A stretch of DNA of 48,192 nucleotides from Thiotrichaceae bacterium. Its GTDB lineage: Bacteria; Pseudomonadota; Gammaproteobacteria; Thiotrichales; Thiotrichaceae. A program made the position numbers and the translations under genes. Shown here one piece after another: positions 1-48,192 of the stretch. Location: assembly GCA_026991755.1 (NCBI GenBank), contig JALXAX010000135.1, positions 1 to 48,192 of the forward strand. Direction: 5' to 3'. Position 1 is the stretch's first letter; each line of letters starts with the position of its first letter. The notes below the pieces were generated by a model, which was not told the origin of the DNA, searched no databases, and was given only the letters and a program-made list of their open reading frames with translations.

Positions 1-117
1 GGGTTGCTCTATAGGCTGTAGCGCCTTCACTCTATAAGTGAAGATAGATAAAGCGGCTTACTTTATTACTATCAGTAGTTTATTTAATACTGGAAGCGGT
101 TAACTGAGGAATTTAGG
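1..117. repeat. Family A palindromic element, one end only (cut by window edge)
   Basis: Bases 1-117 match 4112-4228 almost base for base, apart from a small divergent patch around 55-80, and end in the same inverted-repeat terminus (GAATTTAGG). The base after it begins TTCAA, as in the other copy. The complete copy at 3994-4228 shows that the missing left half lies before this window. A small hairpin, CTTCACT/AAGTGAAG, sits near 27-45. No coding potential is seen. The rest of the gap to 236 holds nothing recognisable. Confidence 0.8.
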
Positions 118-3809: not shown

Positions 3810-3873
3810 ATAGGGCACCTCTATTAATTCTAGCCTCAGCAAAACGAACCATAAATTAATAGAGATGCCCCAT
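3810..3873. repeat. Short hairpin repeat related to family B
   Basis: The arms GGGCACCTCTATTAATT and AATTAATAGAGATGCCCC pair over about 18 bases around a loop reading CTAGCCTCAGCAAAACGAAC. The loop matches the family B interior (CTAGCCTCAGAAAAACGAAT at 30841-30860), and the arms resemble the family B ends (GGAACCTCTGATTAAG). It reads as a shrunken family B copy between smpB and the channel gene. It could also act as a transcription terminator. The rest of the 3691-3933 gap shows nothing else apart from the weak terminator. Confidence 0.6.
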
Positions 3874-3933: not shown

Positions 3934-5010
3934 ATGAAATTAACACAGCTACAAGAAAAATTTCTCAGACTTCGTAAGCATGGTTTATTTCAACCTAAAT
4001 CCTCAGTTAAACAGCCTATAGAGTGATTCTCTTCGGTTGAATGGCGTAGTAAAAAAAGGAATTAATGGTTGATCCTTAATGAGTTTTTTTACATAGCCAG
4101 TCAGCTGAAGAGGGTTGCTCTATAGGCTGTAGCGCCTTCACTCTATAAGTGAAGATAGATAAAGCTACTTATTTTAATACTATCAATAATTTACTTAATA
4201 CTGGAAGCGATTAACTGAGGAATTTAGGTTCAAGCCTTTGTAATTACCGTTATCGTAACCTCCGCACTGGTAATTGGCGCACAGACTTATGAAATACCTT
4301 CATGGTCACTTCCCATCATCCATGCGCTCGACTGGTTTATTACTATTTTCTTTTTATTAGAAATCATGATCAGGTTAGTGAGCAGCGAGAACATTAAAGC
4401 CTTCTTAAAAGACCCTTGGAATATTTTCGACTCACTGATCGTTATCATTAGCTTGATCCCTCTCACCGGTAGCGAAACCGTGCTACTAGGACGACTACTT
4501 AGAATCTTCCGTGTATTACGATTGATTTCAGTCATTCCTGAATTACGCATTTTGCTAAATGCCTTCTTTGTAGCAATACCTCGCATGGGCTACGTCTCTT
4601 TATTAATGTTTATTATTGTCTATATTTATGCAGCAGTAGGCTCGATCTTCTTTGCTGAAATCAATCAAGCATTATGGGGAAATATCAGCATCTCAATGCT
4701 AACCCTATTTCGCATTGCCACCTTTGAGGGCTGGACTGAGATTATGTACGAAACCATGCAGGTACATCCTTTAAGTTGGATGTATTACCTCTCTTTTATT
4801 TTTATTGTCGCATTTGTTTTCTTAAATATGATGATTGGAATTGTAGTCGGTACGCTTCAAGAAGAACATGAAAGAGAGAGCAGAGAAACAGGTAAAGGAG
4901 AAGCTGGAGAAATTCATTGGATCAAGGAACGCACATCTGAGATGCAACTCAAACTAGAACGTATTGAGAAACTACTTGAGGAGCAAGCCTCTCGCAACCT
5001 ATCAAAATGA
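3934..5010 (+). pseudogene. Bacterial voltage-gated cation channel (NaChBac/BacNav type), disrupted by an insertion
   Basis: The N-terminus (ATG at 3934, MKLTQLQEKFLRLRKHGLFQ) runs into an inserted element after codon 20. The frame resumes at 4234 with AFVITVIVTSALVIGAQTYE, a normal S1 segment. Removing the 235-bp element and one TTCAA copy restores one frame of 278 residues, a usual BacNav length. Downstream are S2, S3, an S4 with arginines every third residue (GRLLRIFRVLRLI), S5, the pore helix with filter TFEGWTEIM, S6 (FIFIVAFVFLNMMIGIVV) and a C-terminal coiled coil (MQLKLERIEKLLEE). BacNav filters are usually TLESW; TFEGW resembles calcium channel repeats. Initiation at 4366 would lack S1, so the gene is probably inactive, yet the rest is undamaged, which suggests a recent event. 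Confidence 0.85.
3994..4228. mobile_element. Family A palindromic element (235 bp, MITE-like) inserted in the channel gene
   Basis: The left end CCTAAATCCTCAGTTAA (3994-4010) is the inverted repeat of the right end TTAACTGAGGAATTTAGG (4211-4228), with one base missing on the left. TTCAA flanks it on both sides (3989-3993 and 4229-4233), a 5-bp target duplication. Subterminal segments AGCCTATAGAG (about 4013) and CTCTATAGGCT (about 4119) also pair. No transposase is encoded, so movement would need an enzyme from elsewhere. The right half recurs at 1-117, also followed by TTCAA, which suggests a preferred target or that part of this sequence belongs to the element. Confidence 0.85.
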
Positions 5011-5282: not shown

Positions 5283-5741
5283 TTAAGCTACTCTAAGATT
5301 GAAAAATGATGCAGGATCTAGATTAAATTTTGTTGAAACCTTCGCTATATGCTCTTTAGTTAAATTTCTTTTGCCATTTAAAATCATTGATACTAATGAT
5401 TTTGAACCAATTTCATCTTTAAAATCAGTAAGCTTTAAATTGTGTTGACTCATTAATACCCTAAGTACAGATATTTCCTGACTTGTATTATTTGCTTCTT
5501 TATCAAAGGCTACAATGTCTTCTTGTCCTGCTTCATATTTTGCTATTGCTTTTGAAACTATTTCAATCAAATCATTTAGTGGATCATCTTTTGCATCTTC
5601 TGCGATTGTAAATAGATACTCCATTGTTTCAAGTGCATCTTTATAATCTTGTTCTGTTTTTATATGTAAGATACTTGATGCTTCTGAAGCAAACCCTAGA
5701 AAAGAGCTTGTTAGAGCCTCAGGTTTTAAAACTAACATCAT
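5283..5741 (-). CDS. higA: HigA-type antitoxin, XRE helix-turn-helix
   Basis: 152-residue antitoxin of a type II toxin-antitoxin pair. The N-terminal half is helical and would wrap the toxin. The C-terminal half, about residues 92-150, is a Cro/CI-type DNA-binding domain: SVLRVLMSQHNLKLTDF, then GSKSLVSMILNGKRNLTKEH and KFNLDPASFF. It is second in the operon; its ATG overlaps the toxin stop by four bases (ATGA), so its synthesis is coupled to the toxin. By family precedent it represses its own promoter, which should lie just before higB. Confidence 0.88.
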   Translation of the reverse strand: MMLVLKPEALTSSFLGFASEASSILHIKTEQDYKDALETMEYLFTIAEDAKDDPLNDLIEIVSKAIAKYEAGQEDIVAFDKEANNTSQEISVLRVLMSQHNLKLTDFKDEIGSKSLVSMILNGKRNLTKEHIAKVSTKFNLDPASFFNLRVA

Positions 5742-6049
5742 ATTTCTCCTTTCTTATATCTCTGTGTCAGTTTGTCATATTCTGAGTGGGTAACAACATG
5801 CTTGACGAATACTTTTTGTGTTACAAAAAGTATAACTGCCATTAGCCTTAAATTATTACCGCCTATGTCAATGACCCACCATTTATCTTTGTATTTAAAG
5901 TTATAAAGTGAAGCAAATGTTTCTTTAAGTGCTTGTGGTGTTTCAAATGTACCTTTTCTAAGTACGTTATAAACATCAATGATAGATTCTCTATCATTTG
6001 GGTATTTTTCTGCCGCTTCCGTAAATGGCTTCTTTGAAATAACATGCAC
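5738..6049 (-). CDS. higB: HigB-type mRNA interferase toxin
   Basis: 103-residue toxin of the HigB family (RelE-like fold), a ribosome-associated or free mRNA endonuclease in characterised relatives. Typical features: HVISKKPFTEAAEKYPN at the N-terminus, then YNFKYKDKWWVIDIGGNNLR in the middle and KVFVKHVVTHSEYDKL near the end. The start is a GTG at 6049, chosen because homologues begin M-H-V-I-S and a strong AAGGAAG ribosome site lies eight bases before it; longer in-frame ATGs up to 6130 add residues not seen in the family. Toxin-first order is standard for higBA. Confidence 0.85.
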   Translation of the reverse strand: MHVISKKPFTEAAEKYPNDRESIIDVYNVLRKGTFETPQALKETFASLYNFKYKDKWWVIDIGGNNLRLMAVILFVTQKVFVKHVVTHSEYDKLTQRYKKGEI

Positions 6050-6193
6050 AATATGCTTCCTTGTATTCACATATTGTGAACTATAGCACATAGGGAAAAA
6101 TTTACAACGTGTGAACTTTGCGACCACCAAATTAAGGGCTTTTTTTGAGATTGAAGCACTGAACTTAAAGCTACAATAAACTCACAGAATACA

Positions 6194-6571: not shown

Positions 6572-6659
6572 GATTCGAGGGTACTGAAGCTAAACCACGT
6601 TTAACTATCAGAATTTGTGGAACTTAAATTCACCACTGAGATAGTTTATCCCTTCGAAT
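6572..6659. repeat. Imperfect inverted repeat next to the stop codon of the 513-aa gene
   Basis: GATTCGAGGG at 6572-6581 is inverted as CCCTTCGAAT at 6650-6659. Within it, GTTTAACTATC (about 6599) and ATAGTTTA (about 6641) also pair. The right arm touches the TAA stop of the leftward gene ending at 6659. It could be a terminator, or another small palindromic element of the type abundant in this window. Confidence 0.45.
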
Positions 6660-8200
6660 TACTTATGCTCGCAGGATTTGGCTTGGTGAGATGAAATTAT
6701 ACTTTTTAGCTTTGAAATATTTGGTTTTACAAAAAAAAGATACCTAACATAGTTTGATAAATATGAACGCCAATAGTACTCACCATTCTCATCTTCACCC
6801 CTAGCAATTTTACTAATATCCCCATGAGCAAGAGGATTTCTTCTTTGCGCCATCTCTCTAACTATTTCAATTGTATTTACTAATATTTTTTTATCAGAAT
6901 CGTCTAAATCAAGTCTTTTCTTAAGATCAGTGAGGACGAAGGGGATATTACCCAATGTCAAAAATCCAGAAAAAATTCTTTGCTTCTTATTTATTTTATT
7001 TAAAATTTCTTTTGCTTTATCTTTATCTATTTCTAGCATATTCTGTAATACCAGTGCCGCTTTATTATATCCATTTATATTATTCTTAATAGACCTGTAA
7101 TGTGGCTCAAGGATTGATCCAAATTCTCTTTCTACCTTTGTATAGGTATTGAGGAAGAATGATGTAAGTGAACGATTATTACCAAAAACAACCCATTTAT
7201 ATAAAATTCGCAAACGCTCTACAGAAATATCAAAGTCCTCGGAGTTAAAACTTTCAAAAATTAAATAGAAATGGTTCGATACCTCCTTAGTATATTGGTC
7301 AACAATTGAGTTTTGGGTAGTTTGAAGTACTACGTTATTCTTAGAGCAATCATGTTTTATAATTAGGTTATAAACACAGTGTTCTTTCCTTAATGTAATA
7401 TCCCTTTCATTATTAGAGCGCCAGTCATGCGTCTCATCACGTATTCTGCTCTGTGAAATATAGGTAGTTGACCCATACTCTAAGTCTACAGGATGATCTT
7501 TATGTATCAATTCGAACATCTTATCTAGAGCTGTAGATAAATTATCTAAATCTGCTTTTATTATTATTCCTTTTTTACTGTTAGTATGATACCTATAGAA
7601 AGAAACAAAATTTATATCTTTCAGCGCATTCTCCTCACTCAATATATTCTTTTCAATTAGCCCCAGAGCATCTTCACGAAACGCATGGGAGTAATCGACA
7701 AAGATCCAAACTTTGAAAGAACTACCTAAACTCATATCTGAATTTTGTTTAATAGCTGGTGGTAATAATTTTAATTTGTTTGGGGGAAAGTCAACCGCCT
7801 CAAATCCATCATTTGAAATAATAGCATTAATTTCTTTTTTTTCTAGGCAGATAATGGGGTCAGACAATCGCCTCTCATACCATGTATTAGTATTACGTAT
7901 CAATATTATTCGGAAATTACTAATACTATCAACCGTTTTAAATCTACTTTCTAGCTCCGCCAACCTTTCTTCACAAATCCAGATTTTCAATAAGATATCA
8001 GTTTCCCCAATTATAAAATAAGAACATTGACTTTCAAGCTCCAGATTTATTTTTGCATGAAGCATATCACTTCCTGTGATAATATCTGTAATCTCATCCT
8101 GTGCTTTCTTTAAGCTAGATTTTATAGAGATGAGAATGAAATATAGCCTTCGTCCATTTAATATGTGACAGATAGGGTGGTAGTAATATCTCTTTTTCAT
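6659..8200 (-). CDS. Unrecognised 513-aa protein with HEPN-like C-terminus, partner of the Cap15-like protein
   Basis: No family could be assigned. Residues about 20-95 (RRLYFILISIKSSLKKA to IIGETDILLKIWICEERLAE) and about 165-245 (FKVWIFVDYSHA to IIIKADLDNLSTALDKMF) each look like alternating beta-alpha units, possibly ferredoxin-like or RAM/ACT-like modules; this is a weak visual inference. The C-terminal third is helical and contains RRNPLAHGD, an RNxxAH motif (R454 to H459) typical of HEPN ribonuclease domains. No GS...DxD nucleotidyltransferase motif or GGDEF-type catalytic loop was found, so a cyclase is not evident. Translation is coupled to the upstream gene by an ATGA overlap. It is much richer in A+T than the flanking housekeeping genes, which suggests acquisition. 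Confidence 0.85.
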   Translation of the reverse strand: MKKRYYYHPICHILNGRRLYFILISIKSSLKKAQDEITDIITGSDMLHAKINLELESQCSYFIIGETDILLKIWICEERLAELESRFKTVDSISNFRIILIRNTNTWYERRLSDPIICLEKKEINAIISNDGFEAVDFPPNKLKLLPPAIKQNSDMSLGSSFKVWIFVDYSHAFREDALGLIEKNILSEENALKDINFVSFYRYHTNSKKGIIIKADLDNLSTALDKMFELIHKDHPVDLEYGSTTYISQSRIRDETHDWRSNNERDITLRKEHCVYNLIIKHDCSKNNVVLQTTQNSIVDQYTKEVSNHFYLIFESFNSEDFDISVERLRILYKWVVFGNNRSLTSFFLNTYTKVEREFGSILEPHYRSIKNNINGYNKAALVLQNMLEIDKDKAKEILNKINKKQRIFSGFLTLGNIPFVLTDLKKRLDLDDSDKKILVNTIEIVREMAQRRNPLAHGDISKIARGEDENGEYYWRSYLSNYVRYLFFVKPNISKLKSIISSHQAKSCEHK

Positions 8201-8736
8201 TTATAAACCTTTACTAAATTAACTACTCCATTAGATGGTAATGATGTGAAATATGACCCAATAAGCTTATCTTTCTTTAGATTATTATCATACCTCAGTT
8301 CACTAAAACCTTTAGAGTTTTGAAAATCATAACTATACGATAGTAGAATTAAATTCTTATCATTTATTGTAATATTTGCACTATCAGAAATTGAACGCAC
8401 ATACGTGTCTTTATCTTCAAGAATGATAGAAATCTGCGACCATGTTTGTGTTATATATACGTTTACTTTTTTTGGATTATCCATTTCAGAAGAATTAATA
8501 GTACCACCCCAAGTTCCATTAAAGTTTGGCACACTAAGAAACTTATAAAAAAAATTGATTTTCCAAATATACTTATCAAACAGCCAAAATATGATAGAAA
8601 ACATTGTGACTATCATAGTTACTAATAGGTTAGGGTTTATATATTTTGTTAATAAAATATATAAACCAACACTACTTAAAGCAAAAAAAAGCACTACTTT
8701 TTTTCTTATATCTTTGTTTATAGAATAATTAATCAT
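8197..8736 (-). CDS. Cap15-like 2TM-beta membrane effector (S-2TMbeta family)
   Basis: 179 residues. Two hydrophobic segments occupy about residues 12-31 and 36-52, followed by the aromatic-basic linker FDKYIWKINFFYKFL. The soluble part is beta-rich: VPNFNGTWGGTI, VNVYITQTWSQISIILED, then ILLSYSYDF and KLIGSYFTSLPSNG. This layout and the NGTW...QTWS...LxGxYFT pattern match Cap15 / SMODS-associated 2TM-beta effectors, which bind cyclic nucleotides through the beta-barrel and disrupt the inner membrane during phage infection (CBASS), or are held inactive by them (Panoptes). It is the first gene of a two-gene unit; its partner is not a recognisable CD-NTase. The start has no strong ribosome site. 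The family call is firm, the mechanism here is not. Confidence 0.85.
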   Translation of the reverse strand: MINYSINKDIRKKVVLFFALSSVGLYILLTKYINPNLLVTMIVTMFSIIFWLFDKYIWKINFFYKFLSVPNFNGTWGGTINSSEMDNPKKVNVYITQTWSQISIILEDKDTYVRSISDSANITINDKNLILLSYSYDFQNSKGFSELRYDNNLKKDKLIGSYFTSLPSNGVVNLVKVYK

Positions 8737-26953: not shown

Positions 26954-27218
26954 GTACTCCAACAAGTTAGGTTTGATGAATACAGCGAGTCAGGAAGCGG
27001 TTAGCCGCTAGGCGCGTCTTGCAGGGAATGGTTGTTCCCTTCACAAAAGGCGCAACAACGCGGATGGCCGCTTCCTGGCTCGCCCGAAGGGAGCAACCCA
27101 AAGCGCTCAATACTACGTTATGGGTCTTGCCAAGGGAACAACCATTGCCTACAACCCATGCCTTGTCTTGAGTGCTTTGGATTGCTCTGTATCCATCAAA
27201 CCTAAGTTGATGGAGTAC
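26954..27218. mobile_element. Family C palindromic element, complete copy (265 bp)
   Basis: GTACTCCAACAAGTTAGG on the left and CCTAAGTTGATGGAGTAC on the right are terminal inverted repeats, extending further in (TTTGATGAATACAG / CTGTATCCATCAAA). TA on both sides (26952-53, 27219-20) fits a TA target duplication, as in IS630/Tc1-like elements. Interior arms AATGGTTGTTCCCTT and AAGGGAACAACCATT pair. The sequence is more GC-rich than the host. A nearly identical copy in the opposite orientation lies at 47933 to the window end. The right end provides the last base of the gatB stop codon. Confidence 0.88.
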
Positions 27219-47932: not shown

Positions 47933-48192
47933 GTACTCCAGCAACTTAGGTTTGATGGATACAGAGCAATCCAAAGCGTTCAAGACAAGGCTTGGGTTGC
48001 AGGCAATGGTTGTTCCCTTGGCAAGACCCATAACGCAGTATTGAGCGCTTTGGGTTGCTCCCTTCGGGCGAGCCAGGAAGCGGTCATCCGCGTTGTTGCG
48101 CCTTTTGTGAAGGGAACAACCATTCCCTGCAAGACGCGCCTAGCGGCTAACCGCTTCCTGACTCGCTGTATCCATCAAACCTAACTTGTTGG
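47933..48192. mobile_element. Family C palindromic element, inverted copy (cut by window edge)
   Basis: Begins GTACTCCAGCAACTTAGG after a TA at 47931-32 and matches the reverse complement of 26954-27218 nearly throughout, with only a handful of differences. By that alignment it should end five bases beyond the window (AGTAC), the same 265-bp length. It lies 15 bases after the amtB stop. Confidence 0.87.

Follow-up and report, generated by a model that had tools for sequence, protein, structure and literature searches.

Bacterial MITEs are usually viewed as debris left by insertion sequences (ISs), short-lived and confined to particular lineages. REPINs depend on RAYT transposases, and IS1380 transposases are DDE enzymes whose substrate is double-stranded ends. 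Structured bacterial MITEs, which sometimes lie within genes, include Correia/NEMIS, ERIC, QMITE2 of Coxiella, and Chunjie of Geobacter (PMC10969869). The locus described here lies in a stretch of 48,192 nucleotides from a Thiotrichaceae draft genome, referred to below as the window, and consists of a short non-coding element within a predicted voltage-gated cation channel gene. The cellular role of bacterial voltage-gated channels is poorly known, and the window is a natural knock-out of such a channel.

A 235-bp insertion splits a channel gene

Window positions 3994-4228 hold a 235-bp insert that lies inside the channel gene between codons 20 and 21 and has 17-bp terminal inverted repeats (TIRs); the target duplication on either side, TTCAA, is 5 bp long and perfect. 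The features are as follows.

1..117, plus strand: 3' part of a second element copy, cut by the contig start and followed by TTCAA (118-122)
3934..3993, plus strand: channel gene codons 1-20 (MKLTQLQEKFLRLRKHGLFQ), matched by the N termini of the intact homologues L065 and L066
3989-3993, plus strand: target duplication TTCAA, left copy, from the sequence
3994..4228, plus strand: inserted element, 235 bp, in the same orientation as the channel gene; about 80 related copies in the genome
3994..4010, plus strand: left TIR, CCTAAA(-)TCCTCAGTTA, which lacks one nucleotide relative to the consensus of the family, CCTAAAATCCTCAGTTA
4008..4134, plus strand: covarying long hairpin with paired arms 4011-4065 and 4076-4130 and TAGCG foot 4130-4134; covariance model, 126 bits on the plus strand
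4137..4153, plus strand: small second hairpin TTCACTC-TATAA-GTGAA, from the sequence; present in most subfamilies
4154..4205, plus strand: AT-rich spacer of near constant length and variable sequence, from the comparison of elements
4212..4228, minus strand: right TIR CCTAAATTCCTCAGTTA, from the sequence and a TIR search
4229-4233, plus strand: target duplication TTCAA, right copy, from the sequence
4234..5010, plus strand: rest of the channel gene, 258 codons and stop, covering S1-S6 and the C-terminal coil; Ion_trans domain (Pfam) at 4366-5007 with E 3e-37; 81% identity to L065
4366..5010, plus strand: longest remnant with a standard start codon (ATG4366), 214 amino acids, lacking S1 and most of S2

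When the flanks are fused at a single TTCAA, MKLTQLQEKFLRLRKHGLFQ is followed directly by AFVITVIVTSALVIG, and the 20 + 258 = 278 codons are free of stops. At the junction, the intact relative L065 (genome G012, 81% identity) reads MTLVQLQEKFIKLRNHGLFQGFIIAVIVTSALLIG, i.e., MTLVQLQEKFIKLRNHGLFQ-GFIIAVIVTSALLIG, and L066 (genome G017, 76% identity) reads MKLARVQHFFITLRNNGLFQSFIIAVIV, i.e., MKLARVQHFFITLRNNGLFQ-SFIIAVIV; the insert is absent from both. The empty site was seen in other, related genera only, in uninterrupted homologues of up to 81% identity that match both sides of the junction. The first-pass annotation had described a precise 235-bp insertion with a TTCAA duplication and terminal repeats, a 278-residue channel restored in frame by its removal, and a coding sequence otherwise undamaged; the sequence and the intact homologues bear out this description. 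It had also named two contrary patterns, an extra segment shared by homologues and 5' codons that match no N terminus, and neither is seen in L065 and L066. We conclude that this is a transposition-type insertion in one channel gene. Because the element splits the gene after codon 20, the full-length channel cannot be translated.

The insert-free gene and its relatives encode a single Ion_trans domain with S1-S6 and S4 arginines (S4, RLLRIFRVLRLI). Across S1-S6, the intact relative L065 matches NavRh (PDB 4dxw, E 2e-56) and NaChBac (PDB 6vwx, E 2e-46), the likeness that links the locus to these channels; differences are that the gene is split here, that its filter region reads TFEGW (TFEDW in some relatives), and that L065 also strongly matches vertebrate T-type Ca channels in the PDB. 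We regard the channel fold as settled because of this homology, which, ion selectivity aside, identifies the split gene as a NaChBac-type single-domain voltage-gated cation channel. Of the earlier label BacNav, the single-domain voltage-gated channel with kinship to NavRh, NaChBac, and T-type Ca channels stands; the sodium selectivity is not established.

Anatomy and copies of the element

The 235-bp element contains no open reading frame and no transposase gene, and a simple scan of it returned no promoter- or terminator-like site. It shares with MITEs a length below about 500 bp without a transposase gene, inverted ends with duplications, and multiple dispersed copies. The left end of the window copy reads CCTAAATCCTCAGTTAA, with one A missing, and the right inverted end, at 4211-4228, reads TTAACTGAGGAATTTAGG. 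The inner palindrome (4011-4065/4076-4130) is a 55-nt inverted repeat whose arms are 76% complementary. The layout of the family is about 236 bp with ends CCTRRAWNC(CT or GG)CAGTTR and a hairpin of 122-125 nt at a constant position. Conserved outside the stem are (i) TAGCG at its foot, (ii) a TCACCCA-N3-GGTGA-like small hairpin in most elements, (iii) a tail of 100-105 nt, and (iv) AGCG or a similar sequence ahead of the right end.

In the draft genome (3.66 Mb), the element gave 78 blastn matches; about 25 of these are full-length copies with 92-95% identity, and others are 80-82% identical. The terminal repeat, with up to 2 mismatches, matched the genome 164 times versus 0 and 1 for the reversed-pattern control, and the genome therefore holds about 80 elements. 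We sampled 63 distinct elements by locus from the source and related genomes; the 5-bp duplication is perfect in 40 and agrees at 4 of the 5 positions in most of the remainder (consensus TTNAA). The 78 blastn matches, the excess of TIR matches over the control, and these perfect duplications rule out chance. Lengths fall into a main class of 234-238 bp and classes of 272-273 bp (with a 36-bp internal addition) and 320-322 bp; forms shortened by deletion measure 84-163 bp. The 36-nt piece (CTAAGTTTCGCTAAAGCTCAACTAAG), shared by the 272-273 and 320-322 bp variants (L026, L029, L030, L034, L099, and L100), lies in one stem arm and is itself partly palindromic. Internal-deletion derivatives of 84 and 132 bp that have lost the hairpin still show perfect duplications, and the hairpin is thus not strictly needed for insertion.

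Most of the 49 copies surveyed in the source genome lie between genes or at gene edges, and the window copy is the clearest split of a long reading frame among them. The copies show no orientation bias relative to neighboring genes, which gives no hint of a regulatory role. The insertion had initially been taken as recent, a view that the comparison of copies does not favor: with 6 private differences in the alignment, the window copy ranks second among 25 copies, and its nearest neighbor is 94.1% identical, versus up to 99.2% for other copy pairs. As to the channel remnant, it has no excess of unusual residues, and its amino acid divergence does not exceed that of intact relatives in three comparisons. 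The insertion may be young and derived from a diverged source copy, or it may be older. Nor is the seamless excision once envisaged supported; a clean departure from the donor site is not established for IS1380 elements (PMC9330008).

Ends shared with IS1380-family insertion sequences

A scan for TTNAACCTARAWTCCTCAGTTA in 84,980 species genomes returned 24 stretches from Nitrosomonas, Rhodoferax, other Betaproteobacteria, Thiotrichaceae metagenome-assembled genomes (MAGs), and one further gammaproteobacterial MAG. In Nitrosomonas sp. Nm51, 8 contig ends consist of the C terminus of an IS1380-like transposase followed directly by the element end and a TTNAA pentamer. Nitrosomonas Nm33 carries a complete IS of 1,729 bp (L204:1265-2993) with ends CCTATTTTCCTCAGTTA and CCTAAATTCCTCTTTTA and TTTAT on both sides. 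Its transposase of 543 amino acids has IS1380 as its best NCBIfam model (E 5e-38), at 130.7 bits, below the cut-off of 180, and the element ends agree with each end of this IS at 15 of 17 positions. On a Polaromonas plasmid, an IS1380-family IS (L217) has CGGCAGTT ends and is flanked by a TTAAA duplication; in parallel, some of the non-coding elements have CGGCAGTT-like ends. A Rhodoferax locus holds a 643-bp derivative in which a transposase remnant lies between such ends. The duplication is 5 bp long in the element (TTNAA) and in the ISs of Nm33 (TTTAT) and Polaromonas (TTAAA).

A matching autonomous transposase, for which the first-pass annotation had proposed a terminal-repeat search of the genome, was found neither in the assembly nor in the searched genomes of the family; it is present elsewhere, in Nitrosomonas and Polaromonas. 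The plasmid and phage collections contained no copy of the element. Several candidate partners were rejected: (i) IS1380 remnants at C108 and C140, which lack element ends; (ii) a 939-bp element at C181 (L084, 1149-2087), which is an element copy with a nested piece resembling an IS200-type transposase remnant; (iii) a 4.7-kb TIR pair in G005 (L131), which spans housekeeping genes and was attributed to chance; and (iv) a 1,221-bp TIR pair in L176, which contains no transposase. Being non-coding and having no partner in its genome, the element is classed as IS1380-like by its ends alone. Mobilization in trans by an IS1380-type transposase is most likely, and is the best-supported mechanism because ends and target are shared with transposase-bearing ISs.

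A strand-specific hairpin conserved across families

When folded computationally, elements from different genera give the same hairpin of about 122-125 nt with 44-50 pairs and differing letters, identity between subfamilies going down to about 60%. Internal loops recur at fixed distances, many subfamilies share a 1x1 mismatch at pair 11, and a wobble doublet lies near pairs 14-15. In an alignment of 20 sequences, two-sided change with pairing kept was observed at 32 of 39 pairs, and 96.9% of the cells pair, versus 69.0% after shuffling. The covariation score was 0.775, compared with 0.238 for shuffled and 0.09-0.18 for slid controls, and none of 500 shuffles scored as high. Since related sequences without structure can beat shuffle controls through kinship alone, a polarity test and an independent retrieval were added. 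For the polarity test, the stem register was set by Watson-Crick pairs only, a neutral palindrome being expected to show G-T and A-C equally. The lower stem contained 98 G-T versus 5 A-C combinations, and the element strand was the more stable one in all 20 hairpins.

For the retrieval, the covariance model was built from the hairpin without the ends; applied to 143 gammaproteobacterial genomes, it gave matches at E <= 1e-4 in 18 of them. The best match exceeded 68 bits in ten other families, in nine of which CCTRRA-type ends flank the hairpin at its expected position; eight of these nine elements measure 235-239 bp and one 285 bp, and the 5-bp duplication is perfect in several. In the tenth family, one of the ends is degenerate. 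Weak matches below 63 bits (L229-L235) had no ends and were not counted as members. Aligned separately, ten of the new hairpins showed two-sided change at 32 of 46 pairs and 53 G-T versus 3 A-C; the element strand was again the more stable one in all 10, which makes 30 of 30 hairpins over both sets. The family occurs in Gamma- and Betaproteobacteria with a fixed layout, and these data show that compensatory change has preserved a strand-specific structure in different families. No Rfam family reached its gathering score; the sole match, MIR9486 on the minus strand of window positions 4010-4132, was rejected as a chance match of a long hairpin (25 bits versus a cut-off of 100). We read the element as deeply conserved, structured, non-autonomous, and absent from Rfam.

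We hold with considerable confidence that a non-autonomous, IS1380-ended element of a widespread hairpin family split the channel gene and that this family has a single-strand structure of one polarity. An element of about 236 bp would have entered a TTCAA site in the channel gene, so that the 5 bp were duplicated and the gene was broken after codon 20, and an IS1380-family transposase acting in trans, now undetectable in the assembly, would have moved it. The hairpin would be kept as a single-strand structure, most simply as RNA upon transcription of the element; our working guess is that the folded transcript may limit damage to host messages or serve the mobilization of the element. We put forward only tentatively, as a possibility that falls somewhat short of an even chance as a whole, that the strand-specific, fixed-length hairpin is a mobile structured RNA that is active in the life cycle of the element, in mobilization, copy control, or host-message protection, and is under selection across Beta- and Gammaproteobacteria. 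If so, the family would be a long-lived non-coding lineage that parasitizes IS1380 transposases, and not decayed ISs.

The polarity could also arise at the DNA level, where single-stranded DNA likewise tolerates G-T better than A-C. A folded single strand or cruciform, recognized in transposition or replication, would suit the fixed place of the hairpin inside a mobile element and the unbiased orientation of copies to host genes, but IS1380 transposases, as DDE enzymes, work on double-stranded ends, and copies without the hairpin have inserted; we consider a DNA-level role unlikely, though worth keeping in mind. Less probable still is an ordinary MITE, i.e., a decayed IS1380 element with a roleless palindrome kept paired by mutual correction of its arms in replication or repair. 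Such correction would be expected to remove mismatches and wobbles; the 1x1 mismatch and the wobble doublet nevertheless recur at fixed positions, and neither the roughly 20-to-1 excess of G-T over A-C, inexplicable by a double-strand process, nor the constant length and layout across families fits this explanation. It gains from the duplications kept by the hairpin-less 84- and 132-bp derivatives and from the comparison of L149 with L152, in which two-sided changes are clustered and one-sided ones are absent; arm-to-arm correction could explain some such clustered double changes, not the preserved mismatch, the wobbles, or the polarity. That the split reflects an assembly error or a minority population variant, with an intact channel gene in the organism, is hardly credible, for although the draft comprises 207 contigs and several of these terminate within element copies, the perfect duplication and codon-exact continuity mark a transposition product, and the same signature is present at dozens of other copies.

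Other repeats and genes in the window

A second small palindromic repeat family, with ends GGGGCATCTCTATTAATT, occurs at window positions 3812-3871, just 5' of the channel gene; these ends gave 54 genome matches with up to 2 mismatches, versus 0 for the control. Another palindromic element, with ends TTAGGTTTGATG..CATCAAACCTAA and two hairpins, is present in two inverted copies (26963-27210 and 47950-48185). It matches the hairpin model weakly and has the apex motifs GGAATGGTTGTTCC and GGCGCAACAACGC in common with IS1380-type elements; an apex module common to unrelated elements would be of interest. The terminal repeat of the channel-splitting element contains the heptamer TAACTGA, which is reported to form abundant direct repeats in marine Beggiatoaceae (PMC4679880); we claim no link, because the source genome contains no tandem TAACTGA pair. 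At 5283-6130 lies a HigB-like toxin and HTH antitoxin pair that the PD-Lambda-2 A/B models match as well. A Cap15-like gene (CBASS effector type, 2TM) at 8197-8736 adjoins a 513-amino-acid gene without a family match at 6659-8200, and the two genes are a possible defense locus.

Comparison with known elements

We found no literature on an IS1380-ended MITE with such a hairpin or on MITEs of Nitrosomonas, most subscription papers lying outside the search, and the element family is apparently widespread and undescribed. Set against the usual view of bacterial MITEs, it has one layout, hairpin, and length across many families and two classes, with pair-for-pair replacement and strand polarity. 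Whether the persistence of a non-coding element depends on a fold as RNA (or as a single strand) thereby becomes a testable question, and the covariance model is available for annotating such elements.

With the IS1380-family ISs of Nitrosomonas Nm33 and Polaromonas, the element shares CCTA..CAGTTA ends and 5-bp TTNAA-like duplications; it differs in having no transposase gene and in carrying the conserved hairpin, and no further shared sequence was noticed. The MITE in hupL of Candidatus Thiomargarita nelsonii (PMC4853749) likewise interrupts a metabolic gene in related sulfur bacteria, whereas its 10-bp direct repeats and 19-bp inverted repeats place it in a different family. REPINs, or REP-derived palindromic mobile DNA (PMC3116915), are similarly non-autonomous, hairpin-forming, and dispersed; the inverted ends and 5-bp duplications of the present element point instead to a DDE transposase. 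The structured MITEs (PMC10969869) are also short, non-coding, and multicopy, with inverted ends and a stable stem-loop in the transcript, and are mostly intergenic and occasionally in genes or operons. Chunjie, as described, has the same length of 235 bp. What sets the present family apart from these MITEs is its IS1380-type ends and the occurrence, in many families of two classes, of one and the same hairpin with compensatory changes.
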